The notes below the pieces were generated by a model, which was not told the DNA's origin, made no database searches, and saw only the letters and a list, made by a program, of their open reading frames with translations. A stretch of 27,271 nt of DNA, from positions 1 to 27,271 of the IMG/VR virus record IMGVR_UViG_3300044515_000034, one strand, 5' to 3'. The position numbers and the translations under genes are program-made. Source of the DNA: a virus. Of this stretch, positions 914 to 17,746 are shown piece after piece (position 1 is the stretch's first letter; every line of letters starts with the position of its first letter).

Positions 914-1330
914 ATGAGCCGATTTACAAAAGTGGGCGCCGACGGCGCAAAGCTCGCGGACGATGCCGCCGAGTGGGTTGCCGTCCTCGACAACAGGACA
1001 TCGCTCGTCTGGACCGTCAAGGAAACGAAGCCGATGGCTTGGAAAAAGGCACACGCCGCGGTCGCCAAACTGGACATCGCTGGCTTCACGGATTGGCGGC
1101 TGCCGACCGTCGAGGAGTTGTTCCTGCTGGCCGATCGGACGAAGTATTCGCCGGCGATCGACACGGCGTTCTTTCCGGACTGCAAGTCCGATTGGTACTG
1201 GACCAGCACCCCCGCAGCGTCGTCGCCCGGCGATTGCGCCTGGTATGTCAACTTCGGCCTCGGCGACGCCTACTGGAACGTCCGGGGCGGCAACCTTCCT
1301 GTCCGTGCCGTCCGCGCCAGTCAGTTCTAG
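914..1330 (+). CDS. DGR target protein 1 (DUF1566/Lcl-like, C-type-lectin fold), carries VR1
   Basis: This 138-residue protein has the DUF1566 (Legionella collagen-like C-terminal) signature: a TSLVWT strand, FTDWRLPTVEEL near residue 57, a YSPAIDTAFF segment, then DWYWTST and the variable C-terminus. In DGR targets this domain adopts a C-type-lectin-like fold that displays variable residues on a ligand-binding face. There is no signal peptide, membrane segment or tail-fibre domain. The last 35 or so residues are encoded by VR1 (1216-1325), and the stop TAG 1328-1330 follows directly. A GGGGAG ribosome site lies about ten bases before ATG 914. The gene is a diverged tandem copy of the next one. 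Its ligand is unknown; a role in host or surface binding is inferred from the family. Confidence 0.88.
   Translation: MSRFTKVGADGAKLADDAAEWVAVLDNRTSLVWTVKETKPMAWKKAHAAVAKLDIAGFTDWRLPTVEELFLLADRTKYSPAIDTAFFPDCKSDWYWTSTPAASSPGDCAWYVNFGLGDAYWNVRGGNLPVRAVRASQF
1216..1325 (+). repeat. DGR variable repeat VR1
   Basis: These 110 bases align without gaps to the TR at 2378-2487. Within the variable core 17 bases differ, and all 17 are adenine in the TR (examples: TAC to TGC, AAC to GGC, AAC to CTC, AAC to GTC, CAG to CGG, CAT to CCT). No C, G or T of the TR core is changed. The only other difference is G to C at TR base 2484, beyond the invariant GC-rich 3' segment, which fits an IMH versus IMH* distinction. 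Adenine-only substitution is the hallmark of mutagenic retrohoming. Confidence 0.96.
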
Positions 1331-1351
1331 GTCTTTTGGCAAGGAACAACC

Positions 1352-1897
1352 ATGGTTACGCTTGAACAGGAATTGAAGACGGTGATCGCGCGGCGCTTAG
1401 ATGCTGCGGGTTCCCGCGAGGTCCTCGCAATCGCGAGCGCGCTCTGCAACGGCGCAGCGGCTGAACCCAAACTGCAGGTCCTCGAGATTCCCGAGAGTCC
1501 GCGCTTTCGGGTCGACGGCGATACGGTTCTCGATCGAACGACCGGCCTCCTGTGGTCGCGAGAGAACGTATCGGGCGGTTCCATGAACTGGAAGGCCGCC
1601 CAGGAGGCCTGCAAGAAGCTGCAACTCGGTGGCCACTCCGATTGGCGTCTGCCGACGATTCGTGAGCTCCTCACCCTGGTCGACTACGAGCGCCACGATC
1701 CTGCGATCGATACCGAGGCGTTCAAGTGCGAGTCGGCCTATTACTGGACCAGCACGCCCACAGCGTCGTCGCCCGGCGATTACGCCTGGGTTGTCGGCTT
1801 CAGCTACGGCAACGCCTACTGGGGCTTCCAGGACGGCAGCCTTCATGTCCGTGCCGTCCGCGCCAGTCAGTCATTGGATCTTTGGCACGTTAGATGA
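1352..1897 (+). CDS. DGR target protein 2 (DUF1566/Lcl-like, C-type-lectin fold), carries VR2
   Basis: This 181-residue protein has about 45 extra N-terminal residues relative to target 1, a helical segment beginning MVTLEQELKTVIARR. The DUF1566 domain follows: TGLLWSRE, SMNWKAAQEACKKL, HSDWRLPTIRELLTLVD, DPAIDTEAF and YYWTST. VR2 encodes most of the remainder, and the protein ends with eight residues downstream of the repeat (SLDLWHVR). An AAGGA site six bases before ATG 1352 supports the start. Its TGA (1895-1897) overlaps the ATG of the Avd-like gene as ATGA, implying translational coupling. The extra N-terminal helix could be an anchoring or oligomerisation element. No secretion signal is seen. 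The ligand is unknown. Confidence 0.9.
   Translation: MVTLEQELKTVIARRLDAAGSREVLAIASALCNGAAAEPKLQVLEIPESPRFRVDGDTVLDRTTGLLWSRENVSGGSMNWKAAQEACKKLQLGGHSDWRLPTIRELLTLVDYERHDPAIDTEAFKCESAYYWTSTPTASSPGDYAWVVGFSYGNAYWGFQDGSLHVRAVRASQSLDLWHVR
1762..1871 (+). repeat. DGR variable repeat VR2
   Basis: This repeat aligns without gaps to the TR at 2378-2487. Sixteen core bases differ, and all are TR adenines (examples: AAT to GTT, AAC to GGC, AAC to TTC, AAC to AGC, AAT to CTT). Non-adenine core positions are invariant. Like VR1 it has C where the TR has G at 2484. VR1 and VR2 differ from each other as well as from the TR, so both have been written at least once. Confidence 0.96.
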
Positions 1898-2325
1898 GCT
1901 TTAGCCTGCCCCCAATTGTGAAAGCTGCGGAGCGTTTGATGCTTGAGATCGAGCAGGCAGTCCGCCGCTTTCCGCGGTACCACAAGTACACGCATGGAAC
2001 GCGGCTGCGCGAGCAAGCCATGGGAGTAGCGCGGCTGGCGCATCGAGCATGGCGCGATCAGGCGCACCGCGAGGTGTGGACGACTAAACTCATCTGGGCG
2101 GTTGATGATTTGAAGCTGAGTCTGCAACTGGGCAAGCAGATCGAGGCATTTGTGAGCTTCGCGCAGTTCGACCTGCTGGCGCGACTGTGCTCAGACCTGG
2201 GCAAGCAATGTGGAGGGTGGCGAAAGCAGCAGCACCGAGACAGCCAGAATGCGGCGGGGCAGCGGTCCCAGTCGCAGCGCGCTGAGATACTGAGTTCCCG
2301 GACCGCCCCTGAGGCAAATCCATGA
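1894..2325 (+). CDS. avd: Avd-like DGR accessory variability determinant
   Basis: This 143-residue, strongly basic, helix-rich protein lies between VR2 and the RT, the usual place of avd. Residues 1-110 look like the four-helix Avd fold, with long amphipathic helices (for example VKAAERLMLEIEQAVRRFPRY, then ARLAHRAWRD, then WAVDDLKLSLQLGKQ, then FDLLARLCSDLGKQ). In Bordetella phage BPP-1 the Avd pentamer binds the RT and is required for template-primed cDNA synthesis. The last 35 or so residues (Gln/Arg/Ser-rich, from GGWRKQQ) exceed the usual family length of about 110-130; that DNA lies just upstream of the TR and may be constrained as RNA more than as protein. The start overlaps the VR2 gene (ATGA) and the stop overlaps the RT start (ATGA). 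Confidence 0.85.
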   Translation: MSFSLPPIVKAAERLMLEIEQAVRRFPRYHKYTHGTRLREQAMGVARLAHRAWRDQAHREVWTTKLIWAVDDLKLSLQLGKQIEAFVSFAQFDLLARLCSDLGKQCGGWRKQQHRDSQNAAGQRSQSQRAEILSSRTAPEANP

Positions 2326-3854
2326 CGAAGCCGCGCCGCCAGTGCCGTGCGGCCGGGTCGCAAGCGTCCGGGATAATAGCGTCGTCGCCCGGCGATTACG
2401 CCTGGAATGTCAACTTCAACAACGGCAACGCCAACTGGAACAACCAGGACAACAACAATCATGTCCGTGCCGTCCGCGCCAGTGAGTATCACGCTGCCCC
2501 TAGCTTTCGCGCCCTCCATGCGGCTTGGCGGCGTGCCCGCCGCGGCAAAAAGCCGAGTCCCAACCAGCTATCGTTCGATAGTCAATGGATCGATGGCCTC
2601 CTGCAGCTCGAGCAGCAGCTGACTGCCGGGACCTGGCAGCCGCGGCCGACGACCTGCTTTATCGCGACAGCTCCGAAGGCCCGTGAGATCCACGCGCCTG
2701 GCTTTGCGGATCGCATCGTCCATCACTGGGTCGTGCCGCAGCTCGAGGCGATCTACGAGCGCACCTTCATCTTCGACAGTTTCTCGAACCGCGTCGGCAA
2801 GGGCACGCACGCCGCCATCGATCGCCTGCAGGGCTTCATGCGCGAGGTCGAGAGTGGCCAGGGCGGCGGCTACTATCTGCAGCTCGACATCAAGAACTTC
2901 TTCAATCGCATTCATCGACCGACGCTTTACGCGCTGCTCAAGGTGCGCATGGAACGCCACGGCCTATCGGTCGAGTGCCGCCGCGCCGTACACGCGTTGT
3001 TGCGACGCTCGCCGCTCGAGGCCGGTGTCACCTTTGCCTGCACGCCGGCGGAGCGAAATCGCGTTCCGCCACATAAGCGATTGGACCAGGCGCCGGCGGG
3101 CTGCGGCATCCCAATCGGCAACCTGTCGAGCCAATTCTTCGCGAACGTCTATCTCGATCGGCTCGATCAATTCGTGAAGCGAACCCTATGTGCGCCGCGA
3201 TATCTTCGCTACGTCGATGATTTCGTGCTGGTCCATGAGAGCCGCGAGCAGCTCGAGGCCTGGCAGGCCGCAATCGTCACCTTCCTGCGCGAGGATCTCA
3301 AGCTCGAGTTAAAGGCGGATATCAAGCTGCGCCCGCTCACCGCCGGCGCCGACTTTCTTGGCTACGTGATCTTCCCGACGCACAGAATTGTGCGCCGGCG
3401 AGTCGTCGGCCATTGCCGGGCGAAGCTTCATGGGTGGGAGCGCCATCACGTGCGTGATGCCCGCATTGTAGCAAGCCGTGAGGATCTCGATCGATTGAGG
3501 TCGATCTGTGCAAGCTACGGCGGCCACTTCTCCCATGCCAGCAGTTGGCGACTGCGGCATCGTATCGGCAAGCAATTCCCATGGGTTGTACGCTATTTCT
3601 CCTCACCGGAATCGGCGGCCGCAATACGAAGCCGACACAGAGGCGAAATAGTGAACCGCACTAATTTAGAAATCTGTCGCCAGATAAAACAAGGCATCGA
3701 CGCGGCGCGCGAGAAAGGCGTCTGGTGCAGCTATCCGGTCGGCGTATGGATCAATGACCAGTGCCATCCGTGGCCATTCCCCCGGGACCGAGTGCCGTTA
3801 TCGATTTACGGGCTCGCGCACGCTCTGGCACCTTTCGATGGAGAGGTGAAGTAA
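2322..3854 (+). CDS. DGR reverse transcriptase with TR-encoded leader
   Basis: This 510-residue ORF is a DGR-type reverse transcriptase. The RT domain runs from about residue 60 to 430: LDIKNFF around D189, the DGR-type motif IGNLSSQ at 265-271 (in place of the QG motif of intron RTs), catalytic YVDD at 297-300, then the LGYVIFP segment and a C-terminal thumb-like region. ATG 2322 overlaps the avd TGA and has a GAGG site seven bases upstream; no other in-frame ATG or GTG occurs before the RT domain. Residues 20-54 are therefore encoded by the TR itself, which is unusual. Residues 444-510 extend past the normal thumb and begin at an in-frame GTG (3651) with its own GAGG site, so this part may be a fused or internally started small protein. 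With Avd, the enzyme copies TR RNA into adenine-mutated cDNA that replaces VR1 or VR2. Confidence 0.93.
   Translation: MTKPRRQCRAAGSQASGIIASSPGDYAWNVNFNNGNANWNNQDNNNHVRAVRASEYHAAPSFRALHAAWRRARRGKKPSPNQLSFDSQWIDGLLQLEQQLTAGTWQPRPTTCFIATAPKAREIHAPGFADRIVHHWVVPQLEAIYERTFIFDSFSNRVGKGTHAAIDRLQGFMREVESGQGGGYYLQLDIKNFFNRIHRPTLYALLKVRMERHGLSVECRRAVHALLRRSPLEAGVTFACTPAERNRVPPHKRLDQAPAGCGIPIGNLSSQFFANVYLDRLDQFVKRTLCAPRYLRYVDDFVLVHESREQLEAWQAAIVTFLREDLKLELKADIKLRPLTAGADFLGYVIFPTHRIVRRRVVGHCRAKLHGWERHHVRDARIVASREDLDRLRSICASYGGHFSHASSWRLRHRIGKQFPWVVRYFSSPESAAAIRSRHRGEIVNRTNLEICRQIKQGIDAAREKGVWCSYPVGVWINDQCHPWPFPRDRVPLSIYGLAHALAPFDGEVK
2378..2487 (+). repeat. DGR template repeat (TR)
   Basis: This adenine-rich 110-base repeat has near copies at VR1 and VR2. 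Its core from TAC (codon at 2397) to CAT (codon ending 2462) contains 26 adenines, mostly in eleven AAY codons. The 3' segment 2463-2480 has no adenine, is GC-rich and is invariant, as expected of the initiation-of-mutagenic-homing region. The TR normally stays unmutated. Here it lies downstream of avd and inside the RT reading frame (residues 20-54), in the same frame used by both VRs. Confidence 0.96.
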
Positions 3855-4051
3855 TGCAGTACATCCGCAATGGCTGGTGCTGGCAATTGCTCACGAAGTT
3901 CGAGCCGCGCGATATCTGGGTCGGCGCTTACTGGAAGCGATATCCGTGCGCGCTCGAAGTCTATATTTGCGTGCTGCCATTACTGCCGATTCGGGTCTAT
4001 GTGCAGTGGCCGTTCACGAACAGCGGAGAAACTGTCAAAGATGGAGCATGA
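3854..4051 (+). CDS. Small Trp/Tyr-rich phage protein, paralogue of the protein at 5130
   Basis: This 65-residue protein starts at ATG 3854, whose A is the last base of the RT stop (TAATG), implying coupling. It contains FEPRDIWVGAYWKR, then a hydrophobic stretch VYICVLPLLPIRVYVQW that could be one short membrane segment or a beta hairpin. The same pattern (FEPRDVWIGVYWKR followed by CIVPMVPISVYCQW) recurs in the gene at 5130, so the two are paralogues. I do not recognise the family. The 3' end overlaps the methylase start at 4041. Confidence 0.65.
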   Translation: MQYIRNGWCWQLLTKFEPRDIWVGAYWKRYPCALEVYICVLPLLPIRVYVQWPFTNSGETVKDGA

Positions 4052-4547
4052 GCCCTCAATCGGCCTTTCGGACGACTGGTACACGCCGCCTGAGATATTC
4101 GAGGCGTTGGGCGTGCGTTTCGATCTGGACCCATGTTCTCCCGGTGCCGATCACTGGGTTCCAGCGGATCGCGTCTATACGATTGCAGACGACGGATTGA
4201 AACTGCCGTGGTCAGGATTCGTGTTTATGAACCCGCCGTTCGGAGGTCGCAATGGGCATGTGCCTTGGCTGCGCAAGTTCATTGAGCACGGTGACGGTAT
4301 CTCGATTGTGCGGGCTTATACGAGCGCAGGCTGGTTCCACGATCTAGTGCCATCTGCTGACCTGATCCTATTCCCTCGCGGCAAGACTAAGTTCGTGCGA
4401 CCTGACGGGAGCATTGGAAAAGCGCCGGGCGCTGGCGTCGTTTTGATCGCCATGGGAAACCAGGGATGCCATGCGCTTATGAATAGCGGATTAGGTATTT
4501 ACTGCGTCCCAACCTCACAATCTGATGCCGCAACAGACGATGCGTAA
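4041..4547 (+). CDS. Phage DNA N6-adenine methyltransferase (Dam family)
   Basis: This 168-residue protein matches the phage DNA N-6-adenine-methyltransferase family (PF05869 type). It has DDWYTPPEIFEALG at residues 11-24, FDLDPCSPG just after, and the catalytic NPPFGG at 64-69 (a variant of the [DNS]PPY motif), followed by WLRKFIEHG and a C-terminal GAGVVLIA strand. It uses S-adenosylmethionine to methylate adenine in DNA. Phage versions often guard against host restriction or alter regulation, and the target site cannot be read from sequence. ATG 4041 overlaps the preceding gene by 11 bp and fits the usual family start, placed shortly before the DxWxTP motif. It is within the same operon as the DGR. 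Confidence 0.88.
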   Translation: MEHEPSIGLSDDWYTPPEIFEALGVRFDLDPCSPGADHWVPADRVYTIADDGLKLPWSGFVFMNPPFGGRNGHVPWLRKFIEHGDGISIVRAYTSAGWFHDLVPSADLILFPRGKTKFVRPDGSIGKAPGAGVVLIAMGNQGCHALMNSGLGIYCVPTSQSDAATDDA

Positions 4548-4966: not shown

Positions 4967-5142
4967 AATTCCGCTGCCTACTCGGTGACCGCTTTCTCGA
5001 CGTCGAGGCCGACAGCGAGGCCGCTGCCCAAGAGCAGGCTTTCGCCCGGCTGGTGCGGGATCTGTCGCCGGCGGACTTCACGGCGTGGCGGACCGGGCCG
5101 CAGGATGAGTGGCGGGATGAGTCGGCCAAATGCAGTTCATAA
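4963..5142 (+). CDS. Hypothetical 59-residue protein
   Basis: The start is GTG 4963, which overlaps the TGA of the preceding gene (GTGA); the stop is TAA 5140-5142. The product begins MKFRCLLGDRFLDVEADS, followed by an acidic helical part rich in Ala, Glu and Asp (EAAAQEQAFARLVRDL). The GTG coupling matches the pattern of neighbours, which is the main support that it is translated. The 3' end overlaps the next gene by 13 bp. Function unknown. Confidence 0.5.
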   Translation: MKFRCLLGDRFLDVEADSEAAAQEQAFARLVRDLSPADFTAWRTGPQDEWRDESAKCSS

Positions 5143-5300
5143 GCAAAAAACGGCTTTGGCGTGTCCAGGTTCTCTTCGAGCCGCGGGACGTCTGGATAGG
5201 CGTTTACTGGAAGCGCTGGCCGCAGGCGATCGAGTGTTTCCTCTGCATTGTGCCAATGGTGCCGATCAGCGTTTATTGTCAATGGTGGAAGCGGCGGTGA
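5130..5300 (+). CDS. Small Trp/Tyr-rich phage protein, paralogue of the protein at 3854
   Basis: This 56-residue protein runs from ATG 5130 to TGA 5298-5300. It contains FEPRDVWIGVYWKRW, then ECFLCIVPMVPISVYCQWW and a basic tail KRR. Against the product at 3854 the aligned core keeps FEPRD, the W(I/V)G and YWKR motifs, the CxxP turn and the VYxQW end. Two diverged copies within 1.3 kb suggest a real, maintained family rather than chance ORFs. The hydrophobic second half could be a membrane hairpin. Function unknown. Confidence 0.62.
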   Translation: MQFISKKRLWRVQVLFEPRDVWIGVYWKRWPQAIECFLCIVPMVPISVYCQWWKRR

Positions 5301-10029: not shown

Positions 10030-10452
10030 CTAGCTAGATAGATCCGCGCGGAGCGCGGCGATTTGATCGTCGATCGATTTCAATCGGTCCACGGCGCCCG
10101 GGACGTTCAGGGCGAGCTCGCGCATGGCCCGGATGCCCTTCGCCTCGAGCGCGCCGATCCCGGCGAGCGCATCGCGGCGGCGGCCGAGTGCTGCCTGCGC
10201 GGAAGGGCTCAATTGCCAGCGCTTCGCGTCCGCATTCCATTCATGCGATGGGGATGGTTGCGGCGGCTGATAGTCGACGATCTCGCCCGTGGCGATGTCC
10301 ATTTGCTGGGACAAATGGTCATAATCGCCTTCGATCGGTACGTACCCCGCCGGCACTTGGTTTCGAAGATGCTCCGGATCCTCCGACGTCGACCAGTACT
10401 TGGTATCCGAAAAAAGCCCGGTTTGCGCGTGATAGAACGAGTAGGCAATCAT
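10030..10452 (-). CDS. Tail-associated protein (possible tail-tip or fibre accessory)
   Basis: This 140-residue protein begins MIAYSFYHAQTGLFSD, continues with VPAGYVPIEGDYDHLSQQMD, then GEIVDYQPPQPSP, and ends in a helical region with a paired-helix look (AQAALGRRRDALAGIGALEA, DRLKSIDDQIAALRADL). The layout (small beta domain, Pro linker, C-terminal helices) is seen in phage proteins encoded just after the tail-tip gene, sometimes acting as fibre assembly chaperones or short fibre components. ATG 10452 overlaps the tail-tip gene stop (ATGA). Function is inferred from place. Confidence 0.6.
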   Translation of the reverse strand: MIAYSFYHAQTGLFSDTKYWSTSEDPEHLRNQVPAGYVPIEGDYDHLSQQMDIATGEIVDYQPPQPSPSHEWNADAKRWQLSPSAQAALGRRRDALAGIGALEAKGIRAMRELALNVPGAVDRLKSIDDQIAALRADLSS

Positions 10453-13214
10453 TTTTTGATCACTTCCGCCTTGAGGGTAATGCCGCTGACAGTGAACTTC
10501 GGCAGGGTCGCGCCGCTAGTCCCCTTCGCAAGCAGGTAATAAGTGGTCGTCGTACCCGACGCAAGCGAATAAGCTTTCTCGGCGGCTTCGGCCGATTGCG
10601 TATCGATGGACGCCGGGAAAGACTCTTGGTTATAAATGCTGTCCACAAAACCGGTATTTACTGTGTTATATCCTGATTGGATTACCCCAGTGAAAACAGT
10701 AACTCCGTTGTTTAAATCCCAAGTGAATGTTGCCGTTAAAACTACTTGCGTGGCGTATGGATAGGGACCGACCGTCACCGATGCTAGGGTCGTAACTACT
10801 GGAACACCGACCGAATAGGTCAGCGTGACCGGACCTGCCACCGACACAATGGACATGTCTGTCGCCGCGTTATTCTCCAATTGCGGGGTGGAGGCCTGCG
10901 GAATATTCTCAGTCGGTCCGAACTGGATCGAGTTGATTCCTCCGGCCGGCCCATAGATATTGAACATTCCGAAAACGCTTGCTAGCGAGACGGTGACCGT
11001 TCTGAGAAGAGCGCCATTTTGCCAGTACTTAATGGCCGTACCGTCATAGGTAATCGCGAAATAGTCGGACGTCGTGTAGGTGCCGCTAACGCCGGTCGAC
11101 ACGCCCAGCTCATAAATGAGCCAGTTGCCGGATCCCTGACAATTAATCGCGTAGTCCAGTACCGTATAATTGATGGTGGCGGGGACCGCTGGGACGAGAG
11201 CGCCCATGAAATCTATGTTGGCCTGATTGGCCTTCCAAACGAGATGAGCGGTCGGATAATTATTGACGCTGTAGACGTCGGCATTGATCCAGGTATTGCC
11301 CGAACCGCCGGTCTTTTTGTACGCTCCTTGCTCGCTGACGACAGCGAAGCCGCGCGCCGCGAACATGTTCGGAACTCCCGTCCCATAGAGGCCCGCGCCG
11401 GCGATGCCCGTGACGCCCGGATACTGGTTTGAGAGGCTGCCGTTCAAGGAGACCGCGCGAATCCAATAGTAGCGCGTGAACGTGTCGAATTTTGTGAGGT
11501 GATGTGCGATCCCCACGAAACCCGATGCGACCTTCGTCGCCGACGAAAACGGGGTCGACGATGTGTACTCCCAGAGCTCGTAGGTCGTGCCCGGTGCTTC
11601 GTACGAGGGCCGGTTCCAGGTGAAGAAAATCCCATAGGCATCGCCCGTGGCGACCAGGCCCGAGGGGTCGTCCGGTGCTTCGACGGTCGATGAGGGCGCA
11701 ACGGTGCCCGGCGCCGCATAGTCGGTGATCAGCGGATCCGCGTAGGGCGTCGAGCTTTCCTCTTTGGCGGTGACGACGATCCGTCGGTTGGCGAGGTCCA
11801 TGACGACCGATTGGGCGCGAAAGACCTTGTTCTGCCAGCCCTGCTCCATCAACGTCAGATTGAACGTCTCCCACGGTGCGACCTTGGCGCCGGTCAATTT
11901 CAGATTCAGGGTCGTAACGATCTGGTTGCGGCTTTGCTTCTTAATAACCTCGCAGATCCGCTGGGCGCGATATTCGTCGGTGACGCCGGCGAGCGTGATA
12001 TTGCGTAGGAGCGTCTGCCCGCCATCGGCCGTGACGTAGGTCGATTGGGTCCTCACTGCACATTGCACGTTCTGCCAGTCGCGATTCGGGTCGAAATAGC
12101 TCGCGACGACGGTATTGTAGAGATCGGTTCCGGTGACCGTGCCCTGAACCGTATAGCCGTCCGGTGAAAGGTCGTTATCGGTGATGGTGACGCCGGGCGC
12201 ATCGTATTCTCCGGCGTAGATCCGGTACATGCCCTGACTGAAGATGCGCTGCCCGATCATCGCGGTCAAAATGACGTCCAAGTTGTTGTCGTGAATATCG
12301 CCGCAGGAGAGGACACAGCCAAGGACATAGCGCAGCTGTGTGGTCGACCCCGGGAGTGCGACCGACTGGTCGCATTCGTTCGCGGCGGCGCTCACAAAGG
12401 TCCAATTGATGCGGTTCGTCGGAACCTTCATGCCTAGGACCGAGACCGGCGTCGGCACGCTGAAATAGATCGAGCCGCCGTACATATAGTCGGCGGCACA
12501 GAGGGCCGGATTCGCGCTGAAGGTCCAGGTCGTCGCATCGGTGAGGCGCTGCGAGCCCGAGCCGCCGTTCGTGGAGTCGAGCCGGGGATCGTATACGCGC
12601 TTGCCGCTCACGAACGCCCGAAAGTTCGACGGCGCGCCATTGGGCCATGCGCTCGTCGAGCGTTTCATGCGAATGACGAGTTTGGCGACGCCGTAGCCGA
12701 TGTGATTGGTGCCGATCGCGGCGAAGGCAGCGTCGAGATCCGGCTGGACGACTTCGGTCGAGCTCCCGAAGAGGCGCCAGATATTCAAAAAGCCGGTGAA
12801 CGCCCCTTGCGTGACAGCGCCGGTCGATGAGTTGATGTTGGCGCTCAAGATGGTCGTCGAGTCGAGGACGACGTCGGTGATCGCATCGACCTGATGTCCG
12901 GCGAGCGCGATCACGAACCAAAGATAATCCTGCGTCGCGCCGGAGCTGCTCGAGGTCCCGGGGAAAGCGACGACGCCGGTGGTGAGAACCTGACCATAGA
13001 CAATGCGCCGCGGTTCGAGCGTGCCGCGGACCGTGACGGTTTGCTGGGGCGGACCCTGGTTATTGGACGGGGTCCCGGCAAGCGCCCGCGCGATTTTGCC
13101 GAGCGCGAAGCTGATGACGGCATCGACGATCACGGTGGCGATGATCGAGGCGATAGCGGCGCTGACGCCGACCTCGACCAGAATGGCGGCGATGTAGATT
13201 ACAACCGGCGGCAT
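10449..13214 (-). CDS. Central tail-tip / host-specificity protein (gpJ-like)
   Basis: This 921-residue protein is the largest in the tail module, in the J position after the peptidase-like gene. The N-terminus is hydrophobic (ILVEVGVSAAIASIIATVIV) as in many phage tail-tip proteins. A hub-like part runs to about residue 500, with repeated phage-type motifs (RRIVYGQVLTTGVVAF, WPNGAPSNFRAFVSGKRVYD). A fibronectin type III-like domain lies near 515-610 (GLVATGDAYGIFFTWNRPS, TTYELWEY, RYYWIRAVS). A lectin-like beta domain follows at about 640-790 and a C-terminal beta region ends the protein. It would contact the host receptor at the tail tip. No DGR variable repeat is present here. Confidence 0.86.
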   Translation of the reverse strand: MPPVVIYIAAILVEVGVSAAIASIIATVIVDAVISFALGKIARALAGTPSNNQGPPQQTVTVRGTLEPRRIVYGQVLTTGVVAFPGTSSSSGATQDYLWFVIALAGHQVDAITDVVLDSTTILSANINSSTGAVTQGAFTGFLNIWRLFGSSTEVVQPDLDAAFAAIGTNHIGYGVAKLVIRMKRSTSAWPNGAPSNFRAFVSGKRVYDPRLDSTNGGSGSQRLTDATTWTFSANPALCAADYMYGGSIYFSVPTPVSVLGMKVPTNRINWTFVSAAANECDQSVALPGSTTQLRYVLGCVLSCGDIHDNNLDVILTAMIGQRIFSQGMYRIYAGEYDAPGVTITDNDLSPDGYTVQGTVTGTDLYNTVVASYFDPNRDWQNVQCAVRTQSTYVTADGGQTLLRNITLAGVTDEYRAQRICEVIKKQSRNQIVTTLNLKLTGAKVAPWETFNLTLMEQGWQNKVFRAQSVVMDLANRRIVVTAKEESSTPYADPLITDYAAPGTVAPSSTVEAPDDPSGLVATGDAYGIFFTWNRPSYEAPGTTYELWEYTSSTPFSSATKVASGFVGIAHHLTKFDTFTRYYWIRAVSLNGSLSNQYPGVTGIAGAGLYGTGVPNMFAARGFAVVSEQGAYKKTGGSGNTWINADVYSVNNYPTAHLVWKANQANIDFMGALVPAVPATINYTVLDYAINCQGSGNWLIYELGVSTGVSGTYTTSDYFAITYDGTAIKYWQNGALLRTVTVSLASVFGMFNIYGPAGGINSIQFGPTENIPQASTPQLENNAATDMSIVSVAGPVTLTYSVGVPVVTTLASVTVGPYPYATQVVLTATFTWDLNNGVTVFTGVIQSGYNTVNTGFVDSIYNQESFPASIDTQSAEAAEKAYSLASGTTTTYYLLAKGTSGATLPKFTVSGITLKAEVIKK

Positions 13215-13615
13215 CAGTCAATCCGCCACGCTTTTTGGATGACTTCGCGCGGCCGAAACGAGAGGCCCACCGGAATCATGACGAACGCGCAATTCGTGCC
13301 ATTGCACATGCCGCCCGTCTCGAGACCATCGATGGTCGCGACGATGATGTCGCCGGCGCGCGCCCAATTGGGAGCCACGGGCTCGCCGAACGCATGCGTC
13401 AAGATTCCGGCGATACCGCCATATTCGATCAGGAGCTTCGCCGCCCCGAGCTCGGTCGAGTACTCACCGAACGCCGCGGCCGGATCCACGCCGGTCATGG
13501 CGAGGACGCACTTCGCGGGAAACTGCAGGCAATCGTGCACGCCATACGCCAGCGGCCGATCCCGCGCCGCGTCGATCTCTGCGTGAAATCGCTCGCGCCA
13601 GTCGGGGAATCTCAT
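13214..13615 (-). CDS. Tail-assembly NlpC/P60-like protein (DUF6950 type)
   Basis: The 133-residue product starts at ATG 13615, which overlaps the preceding stop (ATGA); upstream starts in the frame would overlap that gene more. Motifs are YGVHDCLQFPAKCVLAMTG, with the Cys of the putative Cys-His pair, and WARAGDIIVATID. This is the pattern of DUF6950 or NlpC-like proteins found directly before gpJ-type genes. The family may be a catalytic or degenerate peptidoglycan-amide hydrolase acting in DNA entry or tail-tip assembly. The stop overlaps the tail-tip start by one base. Confidence 0.78.
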   Translation of the reverse strand: MRFPDWRERFHAEIDAARDRPLAYGVHDCLQFPAKCVLAMTGVDPAAAFGEYSTELGAAKLLIEYGGIAGILTHAFGEPVAPNWARAGDIIVATIDGLETGGMCNGTNCAFVMIPVGLSFRPREVIQKAWRID

Positions 13616-14259
13616 TTGCGGCCCCCGCCGCCGCCGCGGCCGGTATTCGGCGTCTGATTCGCCGGGTCGATGGTCGTGCCGCCCCATTGAACCTTTTTGT
13701 TGGCGATGGCCGCGATCTGATCGAAGAAATTGTCGGTCGCGAACAGCGATTTCTGCGATTCGTCGGTGTAGAGGAGCCCGACCGTGTTCTGAAAGAGCGA
13801 GTCGTAATGTTTGACCGTCAACTGAATCGCCGCGGAGGTGCGGTTGCGCGTATAGACGAGCAAGTCCATGAACCCTTCGAAGATCGGCGGCTCGATCGGG
13901 CTCAACGGCAGCAGGGTCTTTGAATCGAGCGGAATGAAATAAATCGAAGCAAATTGGTTGTAATACTCCGCGCGCTGCGGGACCTTGCCGAGAATGGTGG
14001 GATCGATGCCGGACAGCGATAGGAGAAGTTCGCCGACGTTGCGTTGATTGGGATCCTCGGTAATGGTAGATAGGCTGCCGAAGCCGCCGGAACCCACGGA
14101 TCCGACGCCGAGGAAGGCATTCCCGCCGATGGTCAAGGTTCCGACGCCCATGTGGGCTCGGATGATGCCGGAGGTGAAGTTAAGCTGTACTGCGAGCGCA
14201 AAATCGACGTGTTCCTGATCGAAGGCCGCCTGATTCGCGGGCTGCGTATAGCGGGTCAT
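13612..14259 (-). CDS. Minor tail protein (tail-tip hub component)
   Basis: This 215-residue protein is beta-rich, with DFALAVQLNFTSGIIRAH at the N-terminus, FGSLSTITEDPN, ELLLSLSGIDPTILG, IFEGFMDLLVY and IQLTVKHYDSLFQ. It ends in a Gly-rich basic tail (TGRGGGGGRK). The pattern of a hub protein measuring contour-like fields and its place between the distal tail protein and the NlpC-like gene point to a gpL-like baseplate hub subunit. ATG 14259 overlaps the preceding stop (ATGA). The exact family name is not recalled with confidence. Confidence 0.65.
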   Translation of the reverse strand: MTRYTQPANQAAFDQEHVDFALAVQLNFTSGIIRAHMGVGTLTIGGNAFLGVGSVGSGGFGSLSTITEDPNQRNVGELLLSLSGIDPTILGKVPQRAEYYNQFASIYFIPLDSKTLLPLSPIEPPIFEGFMDLLVYTRNRTSAAIQLTVKHYDSLFQNTVGLLYTDESQKSLFATDNFFDQIAAIANKKVQWGGTTIDPANQTPNTGRGGGGGRK

Positions 14260-15824
14260 GCGGCTTCGACGAACTCGAGCGAGGCCTGGCCGAAGACGCC
14301 CGGCGTGTACTCGACGCCCAAGCTCGAGGCGGCAAGGACGAAGCGCCCCATGGGTTGCTGTACGATAACCGCCGCGTTATCGGCGGGCGACTGCTTCAGG
14401 GCGTTTTCGAACTGCAGAACGCCCAAGCCCGCGGCATCGCTATCGAGCGGCGTGATCACGCGCACCAACTGCGAATAGGACGGCAGAGCGATTTCAACGA
14501 TATCGCCCTGCAGGAGGAGGCCCTGGGTGCTCACGGGCAAGCCCTTGATGCGCAGGAGTGTGCCGGTTTGCCCAATCGCAGCAATGCCGACTGTCGTCGT
14601 CGGCGTAATCCCCGCGACCGGGAACGAACTGCCGCAATTGCCGGCGCGCCATAGGTAGATTCCGCTGGCGCCGTCGCCCAAGTAGGACAAGGCACCCGAA
14701 ACCACGTAAGCGACGGTGCGACTACTGGTGCTTGCCGGGACGTAGGCGATAAGCCAACAAAACCACCGGCCGCCGCCCATGTCTCTCGAGAACGCGCGAG
14801 GGTTTAAGCCGGTTCCGGTAGCGGTGACGGACGACGCGACGCCAGTCGACAAATTGAAAATGGCGGTCGCACCATTGCCGGAACCGTCATCGACCAGCAA
14901 GGCGCAATCACGCGTTCCGACTGCGCGCGCGGCGCATACAAAGGCGCAACGGTCTTCCGCGACGGAGGCCCGTGACACCGTTTGCAGCGCGTAGTGCTGC
15001 GCGGTCGCGGCGGCTTCGGTCAACGTATCCATGGTGGTCGTGTTGTCGGGCGCGCCAGCCGTATTGGTCGTGACGGTCGCGGAATTTTTCGTCCATGCAG
15101 CGTTCGAGAAATCGTCCGACCATAGGACCGCATTCGGCGCGTTATCAACGAGCGCGCAGCGCGCCACCGACGCCCACGGAATGTCAAAGGAGTCGCCGGC
15201 AACGCCGCCGGTTGCGGTAGCTTCGTAGATGCCTAGCGCCGGCCCCGCTATGCTGACCGGAGTCAATACAATCGCGGAATAGGAGCTTCCGGCGGGAAAG
15301 GCGGCATCGACGCCCGGCCCCGAACTTAAATTCAGGTGAAATAAGGCCGGACCGGCGCCCGCGACGACCATGGCGCGCCCGACATAGGGGACACTAAGCG
15401 ACAGCGTAACGGGTCCATTCGTGCCGTAATTTTGCCCTGCAATCGTCCGCTTTAGCCTTAGCGCCCTATCTTGTGCGGTTAGCGTTTCATGACCCGTTGA
15501 GCCAATCCACGATGTTGTACCACTAGCAAACGTATTATTGGGGAGGAGCTCCAGATCCGGAAACGAGCCGCGCGTGAGGCGCGTCAACGGTGAGATGAAG
15601 ACCCGGTTTTGACGACCGCGCAGCGCCGCCACGAGCGCCTCGAAGCGCGCCAACCGCGCGCCAGTGAGCACGGGGAAGTCCATCCGCAATCGCCAGCGCC
15701 GCGTGCCATAGAGTGTCGAGCTTTGCATTGCGCCGGTGGTCGCCGATTCGTCGACCGCGGTGAAGTCATCGACGCCGAACATCATGCTCGTCGGCACGAG
15801 ATCCGCGGGGAAGAAAATGTCCAT
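14256..15824 (-). CDS. Distal tail protein with inserted carbohydrate-binding-like domains
   Basis: This 522-residue protein has an N-terminal segment (MDIFFPADLVPTSMMFGVDD, RRWRLRMDFPVLTGARLARF, residues 1-100) and a C-terminal segment (about 415-522, with GDIVEIALPSYSQLVRVITP and MGRFVLAASSLGVEYTPG) that together look like one distal-tail protein. Between them lie two beta-sandwich-like modules: about 110-200 (LELLPNNTFASGTTSWIG) and about 230-390 (VLWSDDFSNAAWTKNSATVT, DNTTTMDTLTEAAATAQHYA). The second pattern is widespread in phage tail proteins and resembles carbohydrate-binding modules. The insert would project from the tail tip and may bind host glycans. Support is from recognised sequence patterns only. 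Confidence 0.72.
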   Translation of the reverse strand: MDIFFPADLVPTSMMFGVDDFTAVDESATTGAMQSSTLYGTRRWRLRMDFPVLTGARLARFEALVAALRGRQNRVFISPLTRLTRGSFPDLELLPNNTFASGTTSWIGSTGHETLTAQDRALRLKRTIAGQNYGTNGPVTLSLSVPYVGRAMVVAGAGPALFHLNLSSGPGVDAAFPAGSSYSAIVLTPVSIAGPALGIYEATATGGVAGDSFDIPWASVARCALVDNAPNAVLWSDDFSNAAWTKNSATVTTNTAGAPDNTTTMDTLTEAAATAQHYALQTVSRASVAEDRCAFVCAARAVGTRDCALLVDDGSGNGATAIFNLSTGVASSVTATGTGLNPRAFSRDMGGGRWFCWLIAYVPASTSSRTVAYVVSGALSYLGDGASGIYLWRAGNCGSSFPVAGITPTTTVGIAAIGQTGTLLRIKGLPVSTQGLLLQGDIVEIALPSYSQLVRVITPLDSDAAGLGVLQFENALKQSPADNAAVIVQQPMGRFVLAASSLGVEYTPGVFGQASLEFVEAA

Positions 15825-15847
15825 TGGCTAGATCACTGCGGCGCGGT

Positions 15848-17746
15848 TCATGCGAAGGCGCCGCCCTTAATCAATTTCGTCATATGGGCGATGGTGGTTT
15901 TTTGCGTGGTTTGACAGGCGGAGATGACATCCGAGCGGCTGACGCCGGAGCCGATGTTATAGACCGGCGAGAAGACGATGCCGGGCGCGGCGCTCTGACC
16001 CGGGCCTGAGACGGTCACTCGTTCATTGGGACTGGCGCGAAATTGGACGAGCTGCGAATCCGTGCCGCCGGTGCCCCCGACGGGAAAGGATCCGCCGCTC
16101 GCGAACCCCAAGAGGCTGGCGGTTCCGGCGCCGCTGTTGAATGTCACGGCCGTCGAATCGCCGGCCCCGAAGAGTGATCCCAGCGCGCCGAAAATGCCGC
16201 CGGTCGCCGAGCCGCCGCCCTGATTGCCGAAGATCTTATCCAGGCCCAGCGCCTTGAAGAGATCGAAGGCGGCTGCCTGGTCGAAGATCTGCCGGAATGC
16301 GTTCGCGAAGTCCGCGACGAGGCCCTTGAGGCCGCCTTTCCCGATATTGTCGAAGGCCTGCGCAAACGAGCTTTGAACCGCGCGGCCGGTGTTCTGAGCG
16401 AACTGCGCGGTTTCGTCGAAGCTTCTCTTCGCCACTGCAGCCGCTTCTTTCGAGTCCTCCCCGAGCGCTGCATAGTAGGTCTTGAACGAGTCCTGACTCT
16501 CGCGAATCGACTGGTCGACGATCGTCTTGTTGCTCGAAAAGAATTCGGACAGCGCCTTGGTGTCCGCTGGGCCGCGCTCCCGATTGAACGCGTCCGACTG
16601 GGAAATGATCCCGTCATTGACCAGCACAGCGAGCTTCGCCTGCAGGATCGCGGTGTCGGAGAGGAGTTTCTCGCCGCTGGTCTGGGTGATCGAATCTAAG
16701 TCCTCATAGAACTTCTTGAGGGAATCCTCGCGGATCTTGAGGTTTGGATTGATCTTGATTTCGGTGACGTCGGTACCGAAACCGGGCGGCGGCGCGAGCG
16801 CGCCCAGCAAGCCATTGATGTTCTGATTCTTGATGTCGATAGAGGTCGCCTCGATCAACTTTAAGGTGGCGAGCTTGGTCTCGAGGGCGAGCAGATCCTT
16901 GTCGCTGACGGAGCCCGCGGCGGGCCCGAAGAGGCCGGATCGCTGCTCGCTCAATTGAGTCTTGACGAGCGCGATCTGGGCGGTGACTGACTTCAGTTCA
17001 TCGCCGCTGATAAATGCCGTCAGCCGGTCGGCGAGGAGGCTCAAGGAGGGTGCCGCATCGACGACGATCGCAGTGCCGAGGCCCTTTAAGGCCGCCGATA
17101 CATGATCGATCGACTCCTGGGTCTGATGCATCCGCTCGATCGTGTCATCACTGAACGAGGCGCCCAAGAGCCCAGCTTCAGTGCGGGCCTTGGCAATGCC
17201 GTCAGCACCTTGAGCGAATAGCGGCAGAAGGTCCGCGCCGGCGCGGCCAAAGAGCTCGATCGCGGCGCGGGTCTTATCGGCGGGAACTTTGAGGTCGTTG
17301 ATACGCTGGGCGAACACTTCGAATTGCTGATCCGGCGTCAGCGTCTTGATTTCCGAGAAGGTGAGTCCCAGGGCGGCGAAGGTCTGATTGGCGACGCCGA
17401 CGCCGGATCCCGCCGAGGAAATCGCCTTCTGCATTTTGGCGAGCGAGGCGGAGAGCTCGTCGAGGCCGACGCCCGACCCCTTGGCCGCGAACGCGAGTTC
17501 GGAGAAGGCGCCCGCGCCGACGCCGGCCTTCACGGCCGCCTTCGACAACTGGTCGCCGAATTCGATGGTCGACTTGGTGAATTCCACCAGCGCGGCCGCG
17601 GAGAGGCCGACGCCGATCAACTCGAAGCCCGATTTGATCTTCTCGACCGCGTCGTTGGTCGCCTTGACGGCTTCGTTCAATTTGCCGCGAAAGCCGGCAA
17701 TATCCGCCGCCATTTCGACGACGATGGAACCGATTGTATTAGCCAT
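15848..17746 (-). CDS. Tail tape measure protein
   Basis: This 632-residue protein starts IGSIVVEMAADIAGFRGKLN, the usual opening of phage tape measures, followed by long Ala-rich helices (FSELAFAAKGSGVGLDEL, SASLAKMQKAISSAGSG). It ends with a Gly-rich segment and FASGGSFPVGGTGGTDSQLV then FRASPNERVTVSGPG, a common tape-measure C-terminus. By tail-length scaling it would set a tail of roughly 95 nm (about 0.15 nm per residue). It sits after the tail chaperones and before the distal tail protein. ATG 17746 overlaps the end of the -1 chaperone frame by three codons. Confidence 0.93.
   Translation of the reverse strand: MANTIGSIVVEMAADIAGFRGKLNEAVKATNDAVEKIKSGFELIGVGLSAAALVEFTKSTIEFGDQLSKAAVKAGVGAGAFSELAFAAKGSGVGLDELSASLAKMQKAISSAGSGVGVANQTFAALGLTFSEIKTLTPDQQFEVFAQRINDLKVPADKTRAAIELFGRAGADLLPLFAQGADGIAKARTEAGLLGASFSDDTIERMHQTQESIDHVSAALKGLGTAIVVDAAPSLSLLADRLTAFISGDELKSVTAQIALVKTQLSEQRSGLFGPAAGSVSDKDLLALETKLATLKLIEATSIDIKNQNINGLLGALAPPPGFGTDVTEIKINPNLKIREDSLKKFYEDLDSITQTSGEKLLSDTAILQAKLAVLVNDGIISQSDAFNRERGPADTKALSEFFSSNKTIVDQSIRESQDSFKTYYAALGEDSKEAAAVAKRSFDETAQFAQNTGRAVQSSFAQAFDNIGKGGLKGLVADFANAFRQIFDQAAAFDLFKALGLDKIFGNQGGGSATGGIFGALGSLFGAGDSTAVTFNSGAGTASLLGFASGGSFPVGGTGGTDSQLVQFRASPNERVTVSGPGQSAAPGIVFSPVYNIGSGVSRSDVISACQTTQKTTIAHMTKLIKGGAFA

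Follow-up and report, generated by a model that had tools for sequence, protein, structure and literature searches.

The viral record IMGVR_UViG_3300044515_000034, analyzed here over its positions 1 to 27,271 (the window), carries a complete and genuine diversity-generating retroelement (DGR), in which the template repeat (TR) lies wholly and in frame within the reverse transcriptase (RT) ORF, and not between avd and the RT gene. The TR directly follows a conserved, covarying RNA fold that contains the RT start codon. It is this arrangement that makes the cassette unusual, and both the position of TR and the fold at its 5′ edge were missed by the initial annotation. A DGR with one TR and two targets of the DUF1566/Lcl_C type is in itself known, and most of the 78 related loci are alike. 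The claim of a complete DGR is supported by all features that were tested, namely A-only TR/VR differences, a DGR-type RT, Avd, targets of lectin fold, a nearby integrase, and heterogeneity of the variable repeats (VRs) among relatives. The coordinates are collected in Table 1.

Table 1. Features of the DGR cassette and its surroundings (positions in the window).
Feature	Position	Strand	Remarks
Target gene 1, Lcl_C (DUF1566) protein of 138 aa, stand-alone	914..1330	+	Pfam PF07603 8.3e-30
VR1, variable repeat, 3′ end of target 1	1216..1321	+	differs from TR at 17 sites, each an adenine in TR
Target gene 2, Lcl_C protein of 181 aa	1352..1897	+	Pfam PF07603 3.6e-35
VR2, variable repeat, 3′ end of target 2	1762..1867	+	differs from TR at 16 sites, each an adenine in TR
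avd, accessory variability determinant	1894..2325	+	PHROG 3206 'Avd protein of DGR' 1.7e-20
ACTGAGT, (nearly) invariant motif inside avd	2289..2295	+	just 5′ of the RNA element; 52 sequences
Conserved structured RNA element	2297..2372	+	52-sequence alignment, covariation; ends 5 nt before TR
Helices of the element	P1 2297-2303/2366-2372, P2 2305-2308/2312-2315, P3 2324-2326/2357-2359, P4 2330-2336/2347-2353	+	alignment
GAGG, likely Shine-Dalgarno of RT	2311..2314	+	overlaps 3′ strand of P2; 7 nt before ATG2322
RT ORF, 510 aa	2322..3854	+	phrog_1423 3.6e-97; PDB 8ub7 1.1e-53
TR, template repeat	2378..2483	+	encodes RT residues about 19-54, same frame as VRs
Donor label	2484..2484	+	G in TR (GT|GAGT), C in both VRs (GT|CAGT)
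RT C-terminal extension, absent from relatives	3612..3854 (start approximate)	+	relatives stop near aa 421-444
Tyrosine integrase, temperate phage context	5472..6515	+	Pfam Phage_integrase 1.8e-11; PHROG integrase 3.5e-35

Alignment of TR with VR1 and VR2 over their shared core of 106 nt places every one of the 17 and 16 mismatches at a TR adenine, and the two VRs are not identical to each other. The initial annotation had located the three repeats correctly, except that its ends at 2487, 1325, and 1871 overshoot the core by 4 nt. Leaving adenines aside, the first difference met in either VR is the change from G in TR to C in VR at 2484, which marks the 3′ boundary of the repeats. An IMH/IMH*-type difference is present at this edge, and in the clade the label is G (GAGT) in 78 of 78 TRs and C (CAGT) in 153 of 154 VRs. 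The previously described set of one TR and two VRs was recovered and exceeds chance, the repeat finder detecting no further pair within 6 kb, and no additional VRs were found elsewhere in the record. A consensus fold 3′ of VR, where a stem-loop helps homing in BPP-1, was not found in 133 VR flanks; hairpins of at least 5 bp are present there in 52% versus 37%, a weak excess of short ones.

Both targets are Lcl_C proteins with a C-type-lectin fold, as indicated by Pfam and by AlphaFold/Foldseek, which bears out their earlier description as lectin-like. The AlphaFold model of target 2 has a pLDDT of 90.8, and its best PDB match in Foldseek is the C-terminal domain of Legionella Lcl (8q4e). The likeness concerns the fold of the target proteins, whereas Lcl is a collagen-like surface adhesin and the phage targets are small, stand-alone proteins. 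In the clade, 146 of 194 targets end one codon past the VR. The combination of a single TR with two targets had been regarded as notable but is ordinary: at least two VRs are present in 61 of the 78 scored loci, one survey gives several VRs for about 28.6% of DGRs, and DUF1566 is the commonest annotated target type of DGRs (PMC6642488). All genes had also been described as chained by overlapping starts and stops. This holds for the avd start, which overlaps the target 2 stop (ATGA at 1894), and for the avd stop, which overlaps the RT start (ATGA at 2322), but not for targets 1 and 2, which are 21 nt apart, nor for HNH and target 1, which are 3 nt apart. The tyrosine integrase close by agrees with the proposed temperate-phage setting. 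A role of the targets as tail fibres was considered and is unsupported, the targets lying on the integrase-side strand and the tail genes being distant and on the opposite strand.

The Avd-like gene is present as annotated; it matches NF033474 at 1.2e-10, and its scores lie under the curated cutoffs of both NF033474 and PF22296. The RT contains the IGNLSSQ and YVDD motifs, at residues 265-271 and 297-300, respectively, and in addition to its phrog_1423 match it is closest to the DGR RT of BPP-1 (8ub7; 1.1e-53, and 2.4e-22 in Foldseek). The core of the RT model has a pLDDT of about 90, and the N-terminal segment encoded by TR, at about 37-54, is predicted to be unstructured. This segment gives a Pfam Lcl_C match (6e-4), which annotation pipelines would otherwise misreport as an N-terminal 'lectin domain' of the RT; the structure model does not support the idea of a folded lectin piece. 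The C-terminal extension of the RT probably arose when a frame change fused the ORF to the next gene.

The comparison set consists of 78 scored loci from one Lysobacterales-phage clade. In the 153 TR/VR pairs of these relatives, which were found without an assumption of A bias, 2274 of 3738 A positions differ, as do 204 of 12993 non-A positions. Variation among the VRs themselves, which the initial annotation had expected at TR adenines, was assessed in 158 VR pairs from phages with identical or nearly identical TRs, where 2107 of 3673 TR-A columns differ versus 87 of 13542 others (57% vs 0.6%). For example, L074 and L077 have an identical TR, and their VRs disagree at 21 of the 23 A's, all other bases being the same. 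As judged from these alignments, A-specific diversification of the VRs within the clade is shown, and the VR variants that occur naturally among relatives fit with active retrohoming. These data also bear on the possibility that the present cassette is a fossil, with a damaged RT and frozen VRs. Such a reading could draw on the RT ORF, which continues into the next gene and has a C-terminus unlike that of relatives. However, neither VR core contains a single non-A mismatch, VR1 differs from VR2, both RT motifs are intact in a confidently modeled core, and the VRs of relatives diversify, so that we consider a fossil very unlikely.

The RT ORF begins at ATG2322, and the next in-frame ATG, GTG, or TTG is not found before 2733. 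The frame is open from the start of the leader through TR in all 78 loci, the other two frames being open in 0 and 6, respectively; the start context is ATGA in 76 loci and GTGA in 2. The same arrangement is present in 19 of 19 close relatives from genome contigs, and the 91 RTs of this type form one branch of the RT tree, with a support of 100. The reading frames and the tree together show that TR is placed inside the RT ORF and that this placement is conserved in the clade.

It could be argued that the true start of the RT is a non-standard codon located downstream of TR, and that the ORF through TR is merely open since TR matches the coding VRs. Homology alone would indeed keep TR without stops in the VR frame, the TR-encoded N-terminus is predicted to be unstructured, and in distant relatives the RT mostly begins past TR, from which it follows that translation through TR is dispensable for DGR function in general. 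However, the open stretch extends past TR on both sides, taking in roughly 55 nt of leader as well as the joint after TR, and all 78 loci keep the start codon, together with ATGA coupling and an SD-like stretch rich in purines. Moreover, the other frames are shut in 78 and 72 of the 78 loci, the RT ORF is nonetheless open in six loci where TR is read in another frame than that of the VRs, and 46 of 78 loci have no ATG, GTG, or TTG at all from TR to the RT domain. A downstream start is thus quite improbable, and we retain the start upstream of TR.

The helices of the RNA element derived from the alignment are the same as those of the single-sequence MFE fold. Over the 52 sequences, 96.7% of the cells are paired, 12 of the 19 pairs show double changes, and the compensatory cells number 109 vs 20.8 in shuffles (0/500), with a covariation of 0.405 vs 0.157 for shuffled and at most 0.098 for slid alignments. 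We regard both the fold and its position at the 5′ edge of TR as shown. The TR/VR homology starts a median of 5 nt past P1, and beyond P1 in 105 of 109 cases. The numbers of G-U and A-C cells, 64 and 12, respectively, point to a sense-strand RNA. They also argue against the inverted repeats being a DNA cruciform or a recombination site, as could be suggested by the DNA stem-loop 3′ of VR that matters in BPP-1 (PMC12875486); since, in addition, the element lies at the donor TR and not at the recipient VR, we find this explanation barely conceivable.

In the phage clade, the element contains both the start codon and the likely Shine-Dalgarno of the RT, and the purine-rich 3′ strand of P2 is conserved over the 52 sequences. 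The fold might for this reason be a translational regulator of the RT alone, acting by sequestration of the RBS without any role for the template RNA. Most distant DGRs, however, have the fold 3′ of the avd stop and the RT start after TR, and yet the fold adjoins the TR edge, which makes a purely regulatory role unlikely. In the adjacent ACTGAGT motif, the C, T, G, A, G, and T columns are invariant and the A is present in over 90% of the 52 sequences. Its ACTGA is complementary to TCAGT of the VRs and not to TGAGT of TR, both sides being invariant in the clade, and a pairing of the motif with the VR label can be put forward as an idea.

Two RNA models of the element, R1 and R2, were used for searches. 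R2 locates the element next to TR, on its 5′ side, in the majority of 73 distant DGRs; there are 43 matches, all on the + strand, and 34 of 41 end at most 12 nt from the TR start. A covarying 5′ fold is common to DGRs of several phyla. In whole genomes, all 17 matches are located at DGRs, and 34 Xanthomonas genomes without a matching RT gave zero; being specific in this way, the model is usable as a DGR detector. It has no match in BPP-1 or in 11 other sequenced phages/viruses with DGRs. Rfam 15 has no match at the gathering score in the window, nor at E up to 5 in 1880-2700. A conserved RNA structure 3′ of TR was found neither in the full clade set nor in six subgroups.

To our knowledge, BPP-1 is the one phage for which the mechanism of DGRs has been worked out in detail. 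Its template is non-coding and has on its 3′ side a structured spacer that recruits RT-Avd and is required for priming. The present cassette resembles that of BPP-1 (Bordetella phage, L084; 8ub7 and others) in the VR-avd-TR-RT order, the A-specific mutagenesis, the homologous RT (PDB profile 1e-53, Foldseek 2.4e-22), the involvement of flanking RNA, and the IMH/IMH* label. It differs in the surroundings of TR: in BPP-1, a spacer of 144 nt separates TR from brt, whereas the present TR lies within the RT ORF, with no room between it and RT, and the clade lacks a conserved structure on the 3′ side. Furthermore, R1/R2 do not detect the 5′ element in BPP-1, and the target is Mtd in BPP-1 and Lcl_C in the present phage. 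In BPP-1, RT-Avd is recruited by RNA on the flanks of TR, and reverse transcription is terminated by a motif that lies within the 3′ end of avd (PMC12875486); the present clade has a conserved fold at the same place.

We consider it probable that the cassette, with its template in the RT ORF, is a DGR of working type, and that the 5′ fold serves as an RT-Avd platform and barrier and as a translation switch. The RT-Avd complex would reverse transcribe the TR RNA, making errors at its adenines, and the resulting cDNA would take the place of VR1 or VR2, so that the ligand face at the C-terminus of the two small Lcl_C proteins is randomised. The fold would offer RT-Avd a platform for binding and would also be the barrier halting reverse transcription at the 5′ edge of TR. 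The single G/C difference at the 3′ edge labels donor and recipient. A single transcript would be the RT mRNA as well as the template, and as TR is within the RT ORF, ribosomes making RT must traverse it. The RT would be begun by termination-reinitiation from avd, and because the fold holds the Shine-Dalgarno and start codon, its translation and the use of the template may be mutually exclusive in the clade. We infer RT-Avd binding, the cDNA stop, the translational control, and activity in the present phage. Priming is left unexplained by the proposal, as a conserved structured 3′ spacer, which BPP-1 needs, is absent here. The aberrant C-terminus of the RT ORF in the present phage also speaks against it, as do the lack of a model match in BPP-1 and the 11 other phages/viruses and the RT start past TR in most distant relatives.

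A more far-reaching reading, which we offer only tentatively, is that a widespread and undescribed DGR RNA element sets the 5′ end of the template. Here it would have merged with the RBS of the RT, and the template with the RT frame, so that the RNA would switch between mRNA and template and the 5′ element would replace the 3′ spacer for scaffolding and priming. A large lineage with a coding template, no 3′ spacer, and a shared 5′ fold offers a direct test of what fixes the template edges, of cDNA priming without a spacer, and of how translation and reverse transcription of one RNA stay apart.

Overlap of TR with the RT ORF has been noted in earlier literature as a class, one of many arrangements whose spatial order was thought to be irrelevant. 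Here, in contrast, the whole TR is internal, and a single clade has this arrangement as a fixed trait, along with conservation of both the start codon and the RNA fold. The DGR of Vibrio phage VP58.5 (L095) likewise has TR in the RT ORF and its sole start codon upstream of TR, but it lies elsewhere in the RT tree, has a target of the SUMF1/EgtB type, and gives no R2 match. Burkholderia phage Magia (L088) and Pseudomonas phage LPPA56 (L087) share the two targets upstream of avd, TR, and RT near an integrase, but their RTs are about 38-41% identical and neither has an R2 match; in LPPA56, the RT is annotated as starting past TR. The DGR of Stenotrophomonas sp. SKA14, by its description, is similar in having several DUF1566 targets and a Lysobacterales host (PMC6642488).

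In the window, the template repeat (TR) of the diversity-generating retroelement (DGR) aligns without gaps over 106 nt to two variable repeats, VR1 and VR2, and all mismatches, 17 in VR1 and 16 in VR2, fall at TR adenines; the TR with two VRs proposed in the initial annotation is thus genuine. A third VR was not found in the entire 27,271-base record, an IMG/VR virus record and possibly a fragment. The Avd-like gene and the DGR-type reverse transcriptase (RT), likewise proposed, each match their own PHROG family, the closest solved structure to the RT being the DGR RT of Bordetella phage BPP-1. The lectin-like assignment of the targets agrees with both proteins being Lcl_C and with a target structure model that matches the C-terminal domain of Legionella Lcl. 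The targets are small and, judged by eye, apparently lack a signal peptide.

An RT query of IMG/VR gave 579 relatives, from which 80 loci (RT ~56-86% identical) were fetched; a further 80 loci came from genome contigs, where the 19 closest named-host loci have hosts mainly from the Lysobacterales (Stenotrophomonas, Xanthomonas, Lysobacter, Rhodanobacter, Dyella, Arenimonas, and others). Each TR was scanned against its whole locus without assuming an A-bias, and in the resulting 153 TR/VR pairs 61% of the TR adenines are changed, versus 1.6% of the non-A bases; the adenine changes comprise 1246 A>G, 690 A>T, and 338 A>C. Heterogeneity of the VRs at TR-adenine positions, which had been suggested as a check, was assessed across phages rather than in reads: among relatives whose TRs differ at no more than two sites, the VRs differ from one another in 57% of the columns where the TR has A, against 0.6% of the remaining columns. 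A single TR with two targets had been considered notable; it is instead usual here, since at least two VRs are present in 61 of 78 loci, making two targets per template the rule in this clade.

The only standard start upstream of the conserved RT domain in the window is ATG2322, whose ATGA is shared with the avd stop, and the TR therefore codes for RT residues ~19-54; the first in-frame start beyond it is GTG2733. The TR-encoded part gives a weak Pfam Lcl_C match. The RT frame is open from the leader start through the TR in 78/78 loci (the window counted), versus 0 and 6 for the other frames; all 78 have an ATGA/GTGA start context, 46 lack an alternative start, and the genome contigs share the arrangement. 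In a FastTree phylogeny, 91 RTs with the TR inside the ORF form a single branch (support 100). In distant relatives the RT starts mostly 3' of the TR; Vibrio phage VP58.5 is one of the scattered exceptions. Overlap of the TR with the RT ORF is not new as such, because the DiGReF survey classed it as 'group 3' (PMC3521204). In six loci (L028, L032, L041, L053, L055, L056) the RT ORF reads the TR in a frame unlike that of the VR genes and is still open. Compensating indels are thereby implied, and it seems to be ORF continuity rather than the encoded peptide that is maintained. The AlphaFold pLDDT is ~37-54 for the TR-encoded N-terminus and ~90 for the RT core; as modeled, this N-terminus is a passenger segment.

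Codon-level conservation beyond that of the protein is high across the leader and the TR and falls immediately past the TR. In a MAFFT alignment, not fitted to structure, of the leaders of 52 non-redundant relatives, the consensus fold has 19 pairs, helix P1 enclosing P2 and P3/P4 (see the table below). Double changes occur at 12 of the 19 pairs and 96.7% of cells are paired; compensatory cells number 109, where shuffling gives 20.8 (0/500) and sliding 13-20. The covariation evidence rests primarily on this alignment, the two others being fitted to structure. The minimum-energy fold of the window sequence alone gives the same helices. G-U cells outnumber A-C cells (64 vs 12), as would be expected for a sense-strand RNA. 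TR/VR homology sets in at a median of 5 nt beyond P1, and past P1 in 105 of 109 cases. The ACTGAGT motif is (nearly) invariant in the 52 relatives, and its ACTGA is complementary to TCAGT of the VR, not to TGAGT of the TR.

Coordinates of the DGR, its RNA element, and neighboring features
Feature	Position (nt)	Remark
DGR and targets	914-3854	plus strand, beside integrase
VR1	1216-1321
VR2	1762-1867
ACTGAGT	2289-2295	directly 5' of the RNA element
P1, 5' strand	2297-2303	avd 3' end
P1, 3' strand	2366-2372	separated from TR by 5 nt
P2, 3' strand		overlaps GAGG of likely RT ribosome-binding site
P3, first base		G of RT start codon
TR	2378-2483
RT ORF, extra tail	3612-3854	~70-80 codons past relatives' stop
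TAGTGA	3649-3654	out of frame, within extra tail region
Small paralogous ORFs	3854-4051, 5130-5300	MQYIRNGWCW... / MQFISKKRLW...; common core FEPRD-W-G-YWKR
ORF	3870-4547	phage DNA methyltransferase match (phrog_111, 3.8e-34)
Tail genes	10030-17746	minus strand

A first search model of the element, R1, matched 11 distant DGR loci, and R2, in whose building these 11 were used, matched 43 of 73, always on the + strand, counting matches at E up to 1 with E-values that are rough. Of these 43, 32 lie outside R2's own alignment, and among the 41 whose TR was mapped, 34 end within 12 nt of the TR start. R2 matches below 1e-3, on the same rough scale, include bins titled Desulfoarculaceae, Desulfobulbaceae, Desulfococcaceae, Nitrospirae, and Spirochaetes, as well as Pseudomonadota. 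Most distant matches have an avd-like ORF stop just 5' of the element and the RT start 3' of the TR, so that an RT start codon within the fold is peculiar to this clade. On 15 whole genomes R2 gave 17 matches, 15 of them at previously identified loci and two at further avd-RT pairs, and on 34 other Xanthomonas genomes, all without a matching RT, none. The two additional pairs (G009:C221, L186; G015:C3, L187) are second DGRs in their genomes, located by the RNA model alone and confirmed for avd and RT by tblastn. The RNA model has no match in BPP-1 or 11 other sequenced phages and viruses, and the element none in Rfam 15; an earlier description is possible, the literature covered being mostly without subscription papers.

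In BPP-1, RT-Avd is recruited by RNA flanking the TR, priming is by a spacer adenine, and reverse transcription is terminated by a motif at the 3' end of avd (PMC12875486). Here the RNA element occupies the place of that terminator and its edge is that of the copied segment, for which reasons we consider its most likely role to be that of a barrier and platform. Because the RT start codon lies inside the fold, translation of the RT and use of the same RNA as template should be mutually exclusive.

On the 3' side of the TR, no conserved structure was found, either with all loci taken together or within six subgroups, and only ~13 nt, GTGAGTnTCAGGG, are conserved. The first non-A difference, at position 2484, is a G-to-C change shared by VR1 and VR2; at this label the TR reads GAG(T) in 78/78 loci and the VR CAG(T) in 153/154. 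In distant DGRs the TR base facing the C of the VR is A or G, and once T.

The extra tail of the RT has no relatives among the fetched loci, and the RT has probably been fused to the next gene by a frame change, either natural or an assembly error. Two small paralogous ORFs, a methyltransferase-like ORF, and, on the opposite strand, the tail genes lie further downstream.
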